Below are positions 29,118-37,350 of a DNA stretch of 64,000 bases, one piece after another. The stretch covers positions 124,001-188,000 of the forward strand of contig NZ_JANHDJ010000004.1 of the NCBI RefSeq assembly GCF_024494645.1. Reading direction: 5' to 3'. The stretch is from Halohasta litorea (lineage in GTDB: Archaea; Halobacteriota; Halobacteria; Halobacteriales; Haloferacaceae). Positions within the stretch are counted from its first letter, which is position 1. Each line of letters opens with the position of its first letter. Under the pieces are notes generated by a model that worked only from the letters and a program-made list of their open reading frames with translations, had not been told where the DNA came from and searched no databases. Position numbers and translations under genes: made by a program.

Positions 29118-31031
29118 ATGGGTAGCACCGACACTCGCGCAGTAACCGTTCAGATCGGTGCTGTACTGCTGCTTGGGATTCTGGTTCTGATGTTAACGAC
29201 CTACCAGGCAACGATCGTTCCGGATGCTAACAGAGTCACGGAGTTCGAACACAGCCAGAACGTTATCGACGAGATGCAGACGCTCCAGGCGGACTACCAC
29301 AACACCATCTCGACCGGAGACGATATCGAGTCGACTGTCACATTAGGCACCGACTACCGATCGAGACTGTTTGCGGTCACGCCACCGCCGGTGGCGGGAA
29401 GCCTCACCACGACGGCCCCTGACCCGATCGAATCCGATGCGGTCGACATCGAATCGATCTGTGGAGCCGACGGATCGACGAGGGCACTCGAGTACGAGGC
29501 TAACTACCGGGAGTACCGGGACCCACCGACGATCACCTACGGGAGTTCAGTCCTGTATCTGGAGTTCGACGAGGAGATACTTGTCCAATCGGAGCAATCG
29601 CTCGTCTCGGGCGATCAGCTCTCACTGATGCCGCTGGAAGGGTCGATCGCGAAGCGGGGAACTGGGCGACAATCGGTCCGATTTCGCGCCGGGAAAATAG
29701 AGACGGTCGAACGGACAGTCGAAGACGATTTCAATCTCACCGTTCCGACGGGGATTCCGGCCGACCAGTGGGAAACCGACCCGAACCTACTCGCTGACGA
29801 ACTGGTCTCGGAGGGGGGATCAGTCGAGCGGGTGGTAGAAAACGAGACCGCCAACGGGATCGACATCCAGTTGCAAAGCGGGAGCTATGACATCGACTGC
29901 CGCGTCACTGCCGTCGACCAGGAACCCTCGACGGGGCCAGCCGAGGATGGCTCCGGAGACGGTGGGGGCGGCGATAATGAGGACTCGTCGGTCGGACAGG
30001 GCGGGGAATCTGATTTCTCGGAGACGAACTCGGAGACCATTTCGTCTCCCGGCGGGCTCTGGACGGGAGTCGCGAATGTCAACTCGACCCTCCTGGACAA
30101 TCCACGGTTTTCGCCGGTCGACGCCAGAGAAGGCGGGATCGAAAGCGACGGGGGCCATCGCTACTTCAGGCTCGGCCTGAGCATCTCCAATGAATCGACC
30201 GAGTACGTCTTTCTCATTGGCGAGGAGCGAGAAGGCATCGAGTATGAACTGGAGCCCAACCAGCGGGACTGGCAAGAACGGGACATCGGACTCTACAAAT
30301 ATACGGAGGGTGAGAACCCCGACGACGTCTTCCGGGACGAGGCGTTGACCGAGGCCGCACTCAACAACTGGCTCGACGGCGGAACCCTCGATCTCCTCAA
30401 CAGGCTGTCGTACGAGGACCCCGCCGAAGTCGAGGACGACCTCGAAACGGTTCGAGAGTTCCTCGACAGCAGCGAGGCCAGCGAGGTTTATATCACCGAC
30501 ATGCACGGTCGAACCGAGTTGACACTCGACCGACGCGGCAGCGACAACGAGGCGTACTTCCTCTCGGTCGACGATGGCGAGGAAAACACCGAAACCCATG
30601 CCGTTCAGCCCGATGGAGGCGAGAGCTACAACGCGCTTCGGTTCGGGCTAATCAACCCGCTGCCCGACGAAGACATCGTAATCGAAACCGTCTCGATGGA
30701 GATCACCGACGGCCCCTCCGCAGCACGCGTCGAAAACGATGAGGACACATCAGGCGAATATAATGATGTCGTCTACTTCGATGGTGATGATCAAGCAGGG
30801 GCCATCGAAGACGGCTTTGACACCGGCTCGACGACGACCTTCGACCAGCAGGGCGATATCGGCGGCGATGACGCGGTCGAAGTGTACGTCAACGGGTTCG
30901 AAGACGCTGACGGCGATCCCGTCGATCTCGAAGTCGGCGATGAGATCGAAGCCACCGTGGAGTACGAGGTCGACGGCGAGACGTTCCAACAGACTCTGGC
31001 CTTCGAGATCGCCGACCGAACCGAGGCGTAA
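29118..31031 (+). CDS. large secreted protein with type IV pilin-like N-terminus
   Basis: A 637-residue surface protein. RAVTVQIGAVLLLGILVLML (about 7-26) is a hydrophobic helix preceded by a short polar tail, as in the haloarchaeal pilin-like family often labelled DUF7289. It is followed by TTYQATIVPDANRVTEFEHSQ, a recurrent family block. The exposed part is acidic, with a Gly/Asp/Glu linker near 273-300 and several beta-rich repeats. No clear prepilin peptidase site can be assigned. Role in the envelope or as a minor pilin is inferred. It converges with the HD gene 12 bases away. Confidence 0.7.
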   Translation: MGSTDTRAVTVQIGAVLLLGILVLMLTTYQATIVPDANRVTEFEHSQNVIDEMQTLQADYHNTISTGDDIESTVTLGTDYRSRLFAVTPPPVAGSLTTTAPDPIESDAVDIESICGADGSTRALEYEANYREYRDPPTITYGSSVLYLEFDEEILVQSEQSLVSGDQLSLMPLEGSIAKRGTGRQSVRFRAGKIETVERTVEDDFNLTVPTGIPADQWETDPNLLADELVSEGGSVERVVENETANGIDIQLQSGSYDIDCRVTAVDQEPSTGPAEDGSGDGGGGDNEDSSVGQGGESDFSETNSETISSPGGLWTGVANVNSTLLDNPRFSPVDAREGGIESDGGHRYFRLGLSISNESTEYVFLIGEEREGIEYELEPNQRDWQERDIGLYKYTEGENPDDVFRDEALTEAALNNWLDGGTLDLLNRLSYEDPAEVEDDLETVREFLDSSEASEVYITDMHGRTELTLDRRGSDNEAYFLSVDDGEENTETHAVQPDGGESYNALRFGLINPLPDEDIVIETVSMEITDGPSAARVENDEDTSGEYNDVVYFDGDDQAGAIEDGFDTGSTTTFDQQGDIGGDDAVEVYVNGFEDADGDPVDLEVGDEIEATVEYEVDGETFQQTLAFEIADRTEA

Positions 31032-31043
31032 CGGACGGGAATC

Positions 31044-31736
31044 CTATGCGGTATTCGGTCGTTCGGCGTCCATATCGGCAACCTCCTCTTCGAGCCACTC
31101 GCGGAACCATTTGACACGTTTGAGCCGCTGGTGGGCGATCGATTCGGCGGTATCGGATTCGAGCCGGTCGACGTGGTCGCGGCCGCGCTGGAAGACGCGG
31201 TCGACCATCCGGGCGGCATCCATGTGAGTCCTGGACTCATACCCCATTCGCAGCAGCATGAGGGCGGTACCGTTGGCCCCGATCTTATCGAGGATGTCGG
31301 CCTCGATCAGACACTGGGTTTCGAGGGGGAGCTCGGCCAACGACCCCTGGTGGGAGTGGGCCTCGATGGCCGCACAGACCTCGTCGACGAACGATTGGGG
31401 GAAGTCAGACCGGCTGGTGAGGTACTCGCGGGCGACGCTTGCGCCTTCCTCGGCGTGGATATCCTGTGGGGCTTCGAGCTTCGAAATGTCGTGGAACAGG
31501 GCCGCCACGGTGATAACATCGAGATCCGCACCCTCGTTTTTCCCGATCTTCCGGGCGAGATCGACGACGTTTTTGATGTGGTTGAAGCGGTAGTCGGCGC
31601 TGTGCCAGGGGTACCATCGCATTCGGCCGCCGTCGTCTTCGGTCTGGACGCTCGCGGAGAGATAATCATAGACGAACTGCTCCATCTCGGCGAACTCGTG
31701 GTCGGTGACTCCCGACTCCTTGATTTCAACACCCAT
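31044..31736 (-). CDS. HD domain phosphohydrolase
   Basis: A 230-residue cytoplasmic protein with the metal-binding HD pattern: RFNHIKNVVDLA (His), AALFHDISKLEAPQ (His-Asp) and LIEADILDKIG (Asp). HD proteins hydrolyse nucleotides, cyclic nucleotides or phosphate monoesters; the substrate here is unknown. It is transcribed away from the ArlD/E-actin operon, sharing a 221-base spacer with two palindromes, so common regulation is possible. Confidence 0.9.
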   Translation of the reverse strand: MGVEIKESGVTDHEFAEMEQFVYDYLSASVQTEDDGGRMRWYPWHSADYRFNHIKNVVDLARKIGKNEGADLDVITVAALFHDISKLEAPQDIHAEEGASVAREYLTSRSDFPQSFVDEVCAAIEAHSHQGSLAELPLETQCLIEADILDKIGANGTALMLLRMGYESRTHMDAARMVDRVFQRGRDHVDRLESDTAESIAHQRLKRVKWFREWLEEEVADMDAERPNTA

Positions 31737-31818
31737 GGGACCACCACCAGAGAGAGCGAACCGGTTGTTTCATTATCCAATAGAACGTCCGTTTCACTCT
31801 TAGGCGTTACGACAACGC

Positions 31819-31832
31819 TACCCAGTTGGGTA
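31819..31832. promoter_or_regulatory. palindrome 1 in the HD / ArlD-E spacer
   Basis: TACCCA-GT-TGGGTA, a 6+6 base inverted repeat with two-base centre. It is roughly midway between the two divergent start codons and could be an operator for either gene. Confidence 0.4.
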
Positions 31833-31883
31833 CAGCTATCCACCGTTCGCGTTTCGCGGTCGGATATCCACCAGAATGCTGAT

Positions 31884-31897
31884 ATTCTTCGAAGAAT
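31884..31897. promoter_or_regulatory. palindrome 2 in the HD / ArlD-E spacer
   Basis: ATTCTTCGAAGAAT is a perfect 14-base palindrome ending 60 bases before the ArlD/E-like ATG. A 14-codon open frame (31896-31940) begins at its right edge but shows nothing that supports translation. Confidence 0.4.
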
Positions 31898-31957
31898 GAC
31901 TGTCGGGCAGGGCACGACGCGGGCGACCACCCGGCGATAGAGAGGCCCTGACAGACG

Positions 31958-32410
31958 ATGACAGTGAACCCACGGGAGTACGATGCCGACGAACTGCGGG
32001 AGCTAGCTGGCGTCGAGCCGGTCGACGAGGGCTCGCAGGCGGCGACACCGGCACGGAAGCCGGAGGAGTCGATCCGTGATGAACAGTTCCGACAGCTGCT
32101 GGCGCTCCAGTCGGAACGCCAACAGCTCGACCAGCTCTCACGGCCGTTTCTGACGGCTCTTCCGGAGTCGGATCTCGGCACCGGACTTCGAGACGAGTGG
32201 CTGGATTTCCTCGTCCACGTCGGCGGCCAGGACCGGACCGAGAGCGCGCTCCACTACTACCGGCAGCTACGGTGGATTACACCGGCTGTCGAAGCCGAAC
32301 TGCACACGTCGGTCCACCGGTTCCAGGAGCCAGTCCACGACCGGTCGCTGACCGCGGGTGATCATCGTCTCAGCCTCCTCTATATCGCCACGCTGGCGTC
32401 AGTTACGTGA
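31958..32410 (+). CDS. stand-alone ArlD/E (FlaD/FlaE) C-terminal domain protein
   Basis: A 150-residue protein. After an N-terminal disordered stretch (to about residue 40), the rest follows the archaellum ArlD/E domain: GLRDEWLDFLVHVGGQDRTESALHYY, RQLRWITPAVEAELHTSVHRF, then the closing LTAGDHRLSLLYIATL. In archaella ArlC/D/E connect the motor to the chemotaxis adaptor CheF and the polar cap. Here no arl gene is near; instead a salactin-like actin begins 16 bases downstream. It may therefore be a recruited adaptor for the actin filament. Confidence 0.78.
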   Translation: MTVNPREYDADELRELAGVEPVDEGSQAATPARKPEESIRDEQFRQLLALQSERQQLDQLSRPFLTALPESDLGTGLRDEWLDFLVHVGGQDRTESALHYYRQLRWITPAVEAELHTSVHRFQEPVHDRSLTAGDHRLSLLYIATLASVT

Positions 32411-32426
32411 CCCACTATCACTAATC

Positions 32427-33497
32427 ATGGCAGACGACACCGAAGACGGCGCGTTCGACGGCTCAAGCGACGCAAGCGAAATAACCCCTGTCGGGGTCAA
32501 ACTCGGCAGCACACGCACAGTACTCCAATATCCAAAAGACGGCGAGATCGAAACCGTCCGGACACTCACCTGTCTGGCGACCTACGAGGACGCCATCACC
32601 GGCGAGGAGAAAGTCCTCTACGGCGAGCAGGCCGCTCAGGAGTTCCCCGATACGGTGGAGTTCATGCTCCGGTCGGGGCTTCCCGAGGACGACGATCGGG
32701 CGGAGCTCGCCTCGAAGTTCTTCAATGAGTTGGTCCGCGCACAGGACATTCCCGAAGACAGCGTCGTCGTCTATGCGATCCCGACGATCGACAACGACGA
32801 GGGGCTCGAAAACCTCACCGAGGTCATCGAGAACAGCCCGATCGGCCAGAAACTCGTCCGGAGCTTCCCCGAATCGCTCTGTGGGGCGGTCCCGGCGATG
32901 GGCGACGGCCTCGAAGCCATCGACGAGGTGTTCGTCGCGATCAACATGGGCTCGACCAACCTCGAAGCCTGCGCCTACCGCCACGCCGAACAGCTCGAAC
33001 CCTTCTCGACCGGTGCGGTGACCGGCAGCGAGGTCGACCGCCGGATCGCCAATGCGGTCGAAGAAGAAACACAGGGTCGGGTCAACATCGACCTGACGAC
33101 CGCCCGCGAGTACAAGGAGGAACACGGTGACTTCGTCGACTTCGAACCCTTCACCGACGTGATCCAGCAGCCCGGCGGCGGCTCCCACGAGTTCACCATC
33201 GAACGCAGCGTGATGGACGCGCTCAACGAGTACGTCGACGAGGCGGTCGACGAGATCGCCAACAACTTCCTCTCGGAGCTGGCCAACACCCACATGAAAC
33301 CCTACCAGATCGCCCTCGGCAAGCCGATCGCCCTCACCGGCGGGATGGCCTGTATCCCAGGAATCGAAGACGTCTTCGAGGAGCGACTCTCCGAGGAACT
33401 CGACCGCGACATTACGGTCGTCGCAGCCGACCGACCCGATCTCGCTGCGGCCCAAGGAGCCCAGCGGATCGCCGGCAAGCTCGCTGACAACCTCTAA
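32427..33497 (+). CDS. salactin-like actin/MreB-fold filament protein
   Basis: A 356-residue actin-superfamily ATPase. Phosphate-1 lies in TPVGVKLGSTRTVLQY, phosphate-2 in AINMGSTNLEACAYRH, and the adenosine motif in PIALTGGMACIPGIEDVFEERL. Length and N-terminal acidic tail (MADDTEDGAFDG) match the haloarchaeal family that includes salactin of Halobacterium, whose filaments grow dynamically from the cell pole. The ATG at 32427 is preferred to an upstream ATG inside the preceding gene. It sits 16 bases after the ArlD/E-like gene in one operon. Confidence 0.85.
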   Translation: MADDTEDGAFDGSSDASEITPVGVKLGSTRTVLQYPKDGEIETVRTLTCLATYEDAITGEEKVLYGEQAAQEFPDTVEFMLRSGLPEDDDRAELASKFFNELVRAQDIPEDSVVVYAIPTIDNDEGLENLTEVIENSPIGQKLVRSFPESLCGAVPAMGDGLEAIDEVFVAINMGSTNLEACAYRHAEQLEPFSTGAVTGSEVDRRIANAVEEETQGRVNIDLTTAREYKEEHGDFVDFEPFTDVIQQPGGGSHEFTIERSVMDALNEYVDEAVDEIANNFLSELANTHMKPYQIALGKPIALTGGMACIPGIEDVFEERLSEELDRDITVVAADRPDLAAAQGAQRIAGKLADNL

Positions 33498-33624: not shown

Positions 33625-34284
33625 ATGTCCGACATTCCACTCGAACACGTCCATATCGACCCCGAGCAGCCAACCGATGGCCCGGCACCGGCGGCCTTCG
33701 TCCTGCACGGCCGCGGCGCGAACGAGCAGGATCTCCTCCCGATCGCCAAAGAGCTCCCCGATACGTTCCATATCGTCAGCTTTCGTGCGCCCGACCGGCT
33801 CCAGGGTGGTTACACGTGGTACGACCTCGACCTCTCGGCTGGCGGGCTCCACCAGAGCCAGCCCGATGCGGCCGATTTCGACCGGAGCCGGGACCTGATC
33901 GCCGAGAGCGTCGACGCTGCCATCGACGCCTACGATCTCGATCCCGACCGGCTGGGACTCCTCGGCTTCAGCCAGGGGGCAATCACCAGCCTCTCGCTGC
34001 TGCTCGATTCGCCAGCGGACTACCAGTGGGTCGTCGCCCTCCACGGCTATCTTCCCGACTCCCACCGCGATCTCGAACCCGAGGGGATCGGCGACAAACC
34101 CGTCTTCGTCGCCGCCGGGAGTGCCGACGAGATCATCCCCGCGGCGCGCTCGGAGGCCGCCGCCGAACGCTTCGCGGAACTCGGTGCGGCGGTCACTTAC
34201 AACGTCTATGATGCTCCCCACGGTGTGAGTCCCGAGGAGCTCGACGATCTGGTTGCGTTCGTCGAGGGCGTCTCCTCCGAATAG
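33625..34284 (+). CDS. phospholipase/carboxylesterase family alpha/beta hydrolase
   Basis: A 219-residue serine hydrolase. The oxyanion-hole segment is FVLHGRGANEQDLLP (about 25-40), the nucleophile Ser in GLLGFSQGA (about 112-120), and the Asp and His in VAAGSADEIIPA and YDAPHGVSPEEL. It resembles YpfH and yeast-type lysophospholipases/thioesterases that cleave short acyl esters. The spacer upstream contains TTTTTGTTTAAG (33589-33600), a possible TATA element. The small membrane protein follows on the same strand after 61 bases. Confidence 0.9.
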   Translation: MSDIPLEHVHIDPEQPTDGPAPAAFVLHGRGANEQDLLPIAKELPDTFHIVSFRAPDRLQGGYTWYDLDLSAGGLHQSQPDAADFDRSRDLIAESVDAAIDAYDLDPDRLGLLGFSQGAITSLSLLLDSPADYQWVVALHGYLPDSHRDLEPEGIGDKPVFVAAGSADEIIPAARSEAAAERFAELGAAVTYNVYDAPHGVSPEELDDLVAFVEGVSSE

Positions 34285-36317: not shown

Positions 36318-36674
36318 ATGGATCTCGTCGTGACGACGCCCGGCGTGTCGACGCCCGCGCTTCGCCCGGCCCTCGAATCGGAGCCACGCGAGGGGCTCTT
36401 GGTGATCGACCGGGCGACACGCTGTGGCACAACGGCCGTCGATCCGACGACTGCGAGCCGACTGCGGCTGGCGGTCGCGCCCTGTGCGGTCTCACTGCAC
36501 GCCGCCGACCGGATCCAGCGGCGCATGGACCAGTCGGTCGACGGCGTGATCGTCTGCCAGAGTCGGTCGGACTCGCCGTCCGATGACCGACTTGAGACGA
36601 GATTCGACTGTCCCGTCTCGGTCCACACGCCGACCGGCGAGCACAGTCGAGCCCCACGTTATTCGAAGCGATAA
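36318..36674 (+). CDS. hypothetical protein
   Basis: A 118-residue soluble protein beginning MDLVVTTPGVSTPALRPALE. It has the feel of a small Rossmann-like or regulatory domain (LLVIDRATRCGTTAVDP, VIVCQSRSDSPSDD), but I do not recognise it. Its ATG lies about 25 bases after a TATA-like TTTTAGATA (36287-36295), supporting it as a leaderless gene. The RecA-like gene follows after 43 bases. Confidence 0.6.
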   Translation: MDLVVTTPGVSTPALRPALESEPREGLLVIDRATRCGTTAVDPTTASRLRLAVAPCAVSLHAADRIQRRMDQSVDGVIVCQSRSDSPSDDRLETRFDCPVSVHTPTGEHSRAPRYSKR

Positions 36675-36686
36675 TTCGGGAGGTAC

Positions 36687-36694
36687 TCTTAAGC
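36687..36694 (+). promoter_or_regulatory. TATA element of the RecA-like gene
   Basis: CTCTTAAG lies 24-31 bases upstream of the ATG at 36718, consistent with a leaderless mRNA. Confidence 0.45.
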
Positions 36695-36717
36695 CCACCC
36701 GGACGAACCGCTCGGTG

Positions 36718-37350
36718 ATGAGCAGACGCCTCTCGACGGGGATCGACGTGCTCGATCGGCAGCTCGACGGGGGGATACCAACCGGCAGTATCGTGCTGTT
36801 TTCGGCCGATCCGGCCAGCCAGTCGGAGCTGCTGCTGTACGAGGTGACAGCGGTGCGGATGGCGCTGTATCTGACGACGATCCGCTCGGATCAGGCGGTC
36901 CAGGACGCCCTCGACCGGACCAGCCGGTATACGAACGTCGGCGAGCCGACGATCCGGGATATCGGCGTCGAAGCCCCGCTGGATCAGGGCAACAAGCTCC
37001 TGGGAACTCTCCCCACGGAGTCGACGCTGATCGTCGATACCCTCGACCCACTCGAACGCCAGGAGGCCAGCCGCTACCGCTACTTCCTCAACCAACTCCA
37101 GACACAGATGCGGAACACCGAAAGCATCGCTATTCTCCACGCGATGGAGGGTCGGTCAGTGCCGGAGCTTCGGGACGTGACCGAGCATATGGCGGACGTC
37201 GTATTTAAACTCAACACCGAGGTCCAGGGGACCGAGATCGTCAACCGGCTGTCGGTCCCCAAATTCCGCGGCGGCCGCGCGCTCGACGAGACGATCAAGC
37301 TCAAACTCTCGACGGGCGTCTCGATCGATACGAGCCGGGATATCGCCTGA
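36718..37350 (+). CDS. RecA/KaiC-like protein with degenerate Walker A ('HTR-like')
   Basis: A 210-residue protein with the RadA/KaiC start LSTGIDVLDRQLDGGIPTGSIVLFSADPASQS. Where active homologues have GxxxxGK[ST], this protein reads SADPASQSEL and lacks the lysine, so ATP hydrolysis is doubtful. A Walker B-like strand is TLIVDTLDPL, and PKFRGGRALDETIKLKL is typical of haloarchaeal 'HTR-like' / Rad55-type proteins. These are thought to be regulatory. It lies next to an unknown gene and upstream of the SLC13 unit. Confidence 0.78.
   Translation: MSRRLSTGIDVLDRQLDGGIPTGSIVLFSADPASQSELLLYEVTAVRMALYLTTIRSDQAVQDALDRTSRYTNVGEPTIRDIGVEAPLDQGNKLLGTLPTESTLIVDTLDPLERQEASRYRYFLNQLQTQMRNTESIAILHAMEGRSVPELRDVTEHMADVVFKLNTEVQGTEIVNRLSVPKFRGGRALDETIKLKLSTGVSIDTSRDIA

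Follow-up and report, generated by a model that had tools for sequence, protein, structure and literature searches.

ArlD, a subunit of the archaellum switch complex, is probably the polar adaptor of the actin homologue salactin in haloarchaea, acting through an N-terminal motif. The pair of genes that led us to this proposal lies in a 64,000-nucleotide stretch of the Halohasta litorea genome (hereafter, the window), in which arlD and salactin form a two-gene unit within 31958-33497 on the + strand; a span starting at 31737, as in the preliminary description, takes in the upstream intergenic region as well, and the coordinates, the length of 150 aa and the 16-base gap given there are right. 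The parts of the locus are as follows.

31737-31957, no strand: intergenic region separating arlD from the divergent HD-domain gene, presumed to act as promoter of the two-gene unit (from sequence only)
31958-32410, + strand: arlD, 150 aa, the sole ArlD of the genome (PF04659, 61.5 bits; full-length alignment with arl-operon ArlD)
31967-31999, + strand: ArlD N-terminal motif NPREYDADELR, candidate salactin docking motif (conservation and tracking of salactin)
32000-32140, + strand: variable linker of ArlD, residues 15-61, partly helical, otherwise low-confidence
32141-32398, + strand: PF04659 (ArlD/E) helical domain, residues 62-147 (Pfam match; AlphaFold)
32411-32426, + strand: 16-base spacer between the arlD stop and the salactin start (sequence)
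32427-33497, + strand: salactin, 356-aa actin-fold protein with an acidic N-terminal tail (PF25229, 615 bits)

The flanks of the pair are ordinary, with an HD-domain hydrolase at 31044-31736 (- strand) and an esterase at 33625-34284 (+ strand) as immediate neighbours, in agreement with the earlier statement that there are no archaellum genes around. Further out, the window encodes an acidic 637-aa protein with a hydrophobic segment at its N-terminus and no Pfam match (29118-31031) and a DUF7125 protein with a partial match to KaiC-type ATPases (36583-37350).

The first ORF of the unit matches the Pfam family Arch_fla_DE (PF04659; E value 7.2e-17, 61.5 bits against a cut-off of 21 bits) over residues 62-147, which bears out its initial assignment to the ArlD/E family. 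This is its only Pfam match; the FlaC part that marks ArlCE is absent, and the protein is of the stand-alone type. The whole genome contains two PF04659 genes, the second of which is ArlCE (FlaC plus DE). The arl/che cluster is complete on contig C11 (four flagellins, DUF7500, CheY, CheC, CheD, ArlCE, F, G, H, I and J), and no ArlD is present in that arl operon; arlD sits on contig C29. The window ArlD aligns over its full length, N-terminal motif included, with the Halobacterium-type ArlD encoded in arl operons (L034, L180). Because of this alignment, and because the arl cluster is without D, we identify the window gene as the ArlD of this genome, located apart from the other arl genes. The label "orphan", under which it was originally described, is thus wrong, and an extra, orphan paralogue is rejected for a genome with only two PF04659 genes and an arl operon without D. 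The protein resembles ArlD of the ArlCDE switch complex of Halobacterium and Haloferax in its PF04659 domain, its size, its full-length alignment and the missing FlaC domain, and the Halobacterium-type ArlD also in the N-terminal motif. In contrast to arl-operon ArlD, the window gene adjoins salactin, outside the arl operon of its genome; a place inside that operon is usual for ArlD and not strictly defining. In the AlphaFold model, the PF04659 domain has a pLDDT above 90, with block means of 94-98 for residues 71-150; the linker, the length of which differs widely among relatives, falls below 50 at residues 23-31 and forms a helix at residues 35-57 with low-to-moderate confidence. A search for fold relatives of ArlD yielded no related sequence in the PDB, and Foldseek gave nothing below an E value of 3.7.

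The second ORF, single-copy in this genome, is salactin (PF25229; E value 2.8e-185, 615.5 bits against a cut-off of 27.1 bits, residues 20-352), as had been recognized from its motifs. The protein is 94-96% identical to the salactins of Halohasta salina and of a Haloferacaceae MAG, and the actin nucleotide-binding signature regions GVKLGSTRT, NMGSTNLEA and TGGMACIPG are largely invariant among 18 relatives. It is like salactin VNG0153C of Halobacterium salinarum (PMC10746226) in family (615 bits) and in the acidic N-terminal tail. Volactin (PF25216, HVO_2015, PMC10869688) is a haloarchaeal actin homologue, too, but the window protein scores 33.3 bits against the Volactin model, under the cut-off of 35. 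Unlike in the window, the salactin gene of Halobacterium-type genomes is not found beside arlD; the salactin paper gives poor synteny among Halobacterium relatives and a DNA-related context (PMC10746226), and this poor synteny agrees with the unlinked arlD and salactin genes that we found in the Halobacterium family.

Among 146 sampled haloarchaeal genomes, 72 encode a true salactin (a 73rd listed match, in G049, is a sub-threshold partial one and was left out), and in 57 of these 72, representing 20 of 24 genera, ArlD is encoded directly 5' of salactin on the same strand. By family, pairing was found in 38/38 genomes of the family of the window, 18/26 of family f3, 1/1 of family f5 and 0/7 of the Halobacterium family. 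The remaining salactin genomes have ArlD elsewhere, those of the Halobacterium type in the arl operon. A set of named loci, overlapping the genome sample in part, contains 70 pairs in 80. The adjacency extends over Haloferacaceae, Haloarculaceae, Natronomonadaceae and one Natrialbaceae, so that it is indeed conserved and not a chance feature of one lineage. In Halorubrum, the two genes overlap by 4 bases (ATGA); the spacer measures 2 bases in Halobaculum and 14-16 in Halohasta and its kin and reaches about 140 in Haloarcula, and many pairs show either the ATGA overlap or a spacer of 2-16 bases. Taking one locus per paired genus, we found that, within 5 kb, none of the other flanking genes is common to more than 6 of the 20 genera, after clusters of 19, 8 and 7 genera were set aside as alternative reading frames overlapping the pair itself; this control covers the other neighbours at loci picked as paired, the pairing rate itself being 20/24 genera. 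Given 57/72 genomes, 70/80 named loci and at most 6/20 genera for any other neighbour, chance adjacency is rejected. A natural fusion of ArlD and salactin was looked for, and none was found. One of the pairs is that of Natrinema gelatinilyticum (L264 9327-11092), a member of the Natrialbaceae, whose sampled genomes have no salactin; a possible explanation is transfer of the pair as one unit. Outside haloarchaea, Methanocella-like and Archaeoglobus-like salactins stand away from PF04659 genes, and in some of these genomes a PF04659 gene was not found, so that salactin probably did not act with ArlD originally.

In Haloferax, Halobellus, Halogeometricum and the genus g16, the pair forms the end of a motility operon with the order DUF7500-CheY-CheC-CheD-ArlD-salactin, and the entire unit from DUF7500 to salactin adjoins, in divergent orientation, the flagellins-ArlCE-F-G-H-I-J genes; a few kilobases separate CheD from the pair in g16, Halogeometricum and one Halobellus. 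DUF7500 proteins (for example, L033 6521-7690 and L183 12547-13776) are regular neighbours of flagellins and CheY in haloarchaeal arl/che clusters. In H. volcanii, which carries a PF25229 match above the cut-off, CheY, CheC and CheD are HVO_1207, HVO_1206 and HVO_1205 (PMC2841640), and ArlD/HVO_1202 has been treated as a transcriptional unit that is upregulated, like all arl and che units, upon csmR deletion (PMC13286277). Because of this numbering and the gene order in Haloferax (L183), HVO_1202, left unnamed in that 2026 paper (PMC13286277), should be, by synteny, the salactin homologue. At some Haloferax loci (L187 17315-17887, L189 16010-16456), one more D-like paralogue, in which the motif is degenerate, follows salactin at a distance of about 2.5 kb. 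The arl operon of Halobacteriaceae archaeon SHR40 holds two salactins interleaved with three ArlCE copies, in the order CheY-CheC-CheD-ArlCE-F-G-salactin-ArlCE-H-salactin-ArlCE-I-J (L259 7377-17863, SAYS01000009.1; also L036, G118), and a third salactin of SHR40 is paired elsewhere with a motif-type ArlD (L281).

ArlD of this type starts with the motif NPrxYDxxELRxxA, followed by the variable-length linker and the helical PF04659 domain. In 28 aligned ArlD sequences, P5, Y8, D9 and R14 are invariant, and E12, L13 and A17 are nearly so; the DNA pattern of the motif occurs once in the whole genome, at ArlD only, with no other protein of this genome matched. AlphaFold models it as a short helix of low confidence, as is common for short linear motifs in such predictions. 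A motif-type ArlD is encoded in all 72 sampled salactin-bearing haloarchaeal genomes, a count that takes in G094, with the variant NPRDMDPDDLR, and G118, in which the motif ArlD is away from the salactins. Among the 36 salactin-less archaellated genomes that were read, the motif is absent from 32, many of which have another ArlD subtype or no D; it is kept in four, from two lineages (G003/G012 and G024/G124). The association of motif and salactin holds also in Halobacterium-type genomes, in which the two genes lie apart. One genus provides a particularly close comparison: ArlD of the salactin-bearing G036 starts with MTGRLNPRRYDLGELRDAV, and that of G037 is nearly alike, whereas in G049, which has lost salactin, ArlD (L198 7840-9438, - strand) starts with MTGRLNPRGDDPGESHGTV, a decayed motif. 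All eight salactin genomes of this genus encode a motif-type ArlD, six of them paired; G391, G392 and G394, without salactin, have only a motif-less arl-operon D. In Halocatena marina (L263 8589-9761), the motif is apparently doubled, with one copy at the N-terminus, the other ahead of the PF04659 domain and a long low-complexity linker between them. At the genome level, the association of motif and salactin has a p-value below 1e-12 with ancestry ignored, and such genome-level values are inflated because of shared ancestry. In the ArlD tree, built on 102 columns, most pairs descend from few ancestors, and there are only three well-supported independent contrasts, about two of which agree with the association while almost none disagrees; with so few contrasts, a test that corrects for phylogeny has too little power, and the sign test does not reach significance.

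ArlD and salactin are lost and retained together. Four genomes (G061, G066, G099 and G109, drafts of 20-70 contigs with 98-99% completeness) keep ArlCE and the arl operon, and both ArlD and salactin are missing; in three of these (G061, G066 and G099; L192, L193 and L195), the arl operon reads ArlCE-F-G-H-I-J, and ArlD was found nowhere in the genome. Conversely, G395, a single 3.75-Mb contig, encodes an ArlD-salactin pair (L318 9289-11069) and a second salactin (L319), and the whole single-contig genome contains no PF04659 gene besides the paired ArlD, so that it is apparently without ArlCE. In G403 and G111, a different arl operon encodes a D of its own that lacks the motif, and a motif-type ArlD is additionally present beside salactin (convergent in G111). 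The second salactin of H. mucosum is immediately followed by a D paralogue of its own that carries the motif. With ArlD and salactin lost together where arl is kept, and the pair present without ArlCE in one genome, ArlD follows salactin rather than the motor. Archaellum switch genes were found in 72/72 salactin-bearing against 42/74 salactin-less haloarchaeal genomes (Fisher p about 7e-12, ancestry ignored). A strict tie of salactin to archaella is rejected, given the Archaeoglobus-like and Methanocella-like salactins off PF04659 genes and the pair without ArlCE in G395.

Taken together, adjacency and joint keeping or loss suggest that, at the cell pole, the salactin filament and the motility machinery work together. 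ArlCE is known to interact with ArlD; both bind CheF and ArlH, and they may also contact the polar cap (PMC8978795; PMC9126983); in H. volcanii, the binding of ArlD to ArlCE and its place at the polar motor are known (PMC8978795, PMC11588486), ArlD-GFP is polar in 77% of the cells, and MinD2 and MinD4 are placement factors (PMC11588486). Salactin filaments, shown only for H. salinarum, are dynamically unstable and grow out of polar foci (PMC10746226). Among the papers accessible to our literature searches, none joins salactin and archaella. In view of the ArlCE-ArlD-CheF-ArlH contacts, polar ArlD-GFP and the polar foci of salactin, ArlD as the polar link is the simplest model. Under this model, the C-terminal PF04659 domain would dock to the polar switch complex or the polar cap, together with ArlCE and CheF, and the N-terminal NPrxYDxxELR motif, on its variable linker, would bind salactin. 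At the pole that bears the motility machinery, ArlD would thereby mark or anchor salactin filaments, or nucleate them. The filaments might help to position or share out this machinery, or they might take it as their polar base while handling other cargo; they may serve the placement and inheritance of archaella, the chemosensory arrays, DNA or more than one of these. A functional partnership of ArlD and salactin is very probable; direct binding of salactin by the motif has, in our estimate, about an even chance, and tethering of salactin to the pole by ArlD a somewhat smaller one. ParM-ParR and MamK-MamJ are actin-plus-adaptor pairs, and the likeness to them is one of working principle only, a filament gene with a dedicated adaptor gene; it implies no kinship in sequence between ArlD and ParR or MamJ, and here the adaptor is a subunit of a motility motor.

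Several other explanations deserve consideration. If salactin belonged to the motility regulon simply because motile rods need shape and pole formation, ArlD and the switch complex would be untouched by it; the joint rise of ArlD/HVO_1202 with all arl and che units in H. volcanii (PMC13286277) and the position of the pair at the che operon end in Haloferax and Halobellus are consistent with such shared regulation. Nevertheless, the pairing is specific to ArlD and not shared by arl genes at large, the two genes are lost together where arl is kept and kept together where arl is replaced or ArlCE is gone, and the motif tracks salactin even in the unlinked state, so that we consider this account unlikely. 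Alternatively, salactin could be a chromosome-partitioning filament, as published, with ArlD only as its polar anchor and the archaellum not among its cargo. Deletion of salactin in H. salinarum leaves motility unchanged and, at low phosphate, causes defects in DNA partition or distribution, shape and viability (PMC10746226), and G395 retains the pair without ArlCE; the ubiquity of archaellum switch genes in salactin-bearing genomes, subject to shared ancestry, and the insertion of salactin in che/arl operons speak against this possibility, to which we give slightly less credence still.

The genomes of G403 and G111, with one D in the arl operon and a motif-type ArlD next to salactin, would fit an ArlD/E-like adaptor outside the archaellum, additional to a real ArlD that is elsewhere or dispensable. 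For the window gene, this is very improbable: no other ArlD was found in its genome, and the arl-operon ArlD of the Halobacterium type is related to it over the full length and shares the motif. The original proposal of a dedicated ArlD/E adaptor for salactin accordingly survives in part, the coupling being supported by the conserved pairing, while the extra, orphan adaptor is not, inasmuch as in other genera the same pair is within the che/arl cluster. Least credible of all is a neutral, functionally meaningless gene order; much of the pairing is indeed vertical inheritance, but other neighbours are shuffled, shared by at most 6/20 genera, the two genes relocate as a pair, ArlD has been duplicated with salactin, and Natrinema has the pair in a family without salactin in our sample. 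We therefore favour, with slightly better than even confidence, ArlD as the dedicated partner of salactin in haloarchaea, with the motif binding salactin and the filaments anchored at the pole. Counting against this reading are the unchanged motility of the H. salinarum deletion (PMC10746226), the salactins outside haloarchaea that stand off PF04659 genes, the two lineages that have the motif and no salactin, and the small number of independent contrasts. More tentatively, ArlD and salactin might constitute a self-contained polar actin-adaptor module shared by the cytoskeleton and the archaellum switch, in which the motif would capture the pole-side end of the filament, so that the placement of the motor, the machinery of chemotaxis and perhaps also the partitioning of DNA would be coupled; such a module could persist without ArlCE.

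Salactin is among the very few archaeal actins that have been studied in living cells, and it is known so far only as a possible DNA-segregation device. Its gene context, published as uninformative, is so in Halobacterium-type genomes, in which the two genes are apart, and not in most other haloarchaea. The conserved pair and the candidate docking motif join two questions, namely, what anchors salactin at the pole and what cargo it serves, and how the archaellum is linked to the polar cap.
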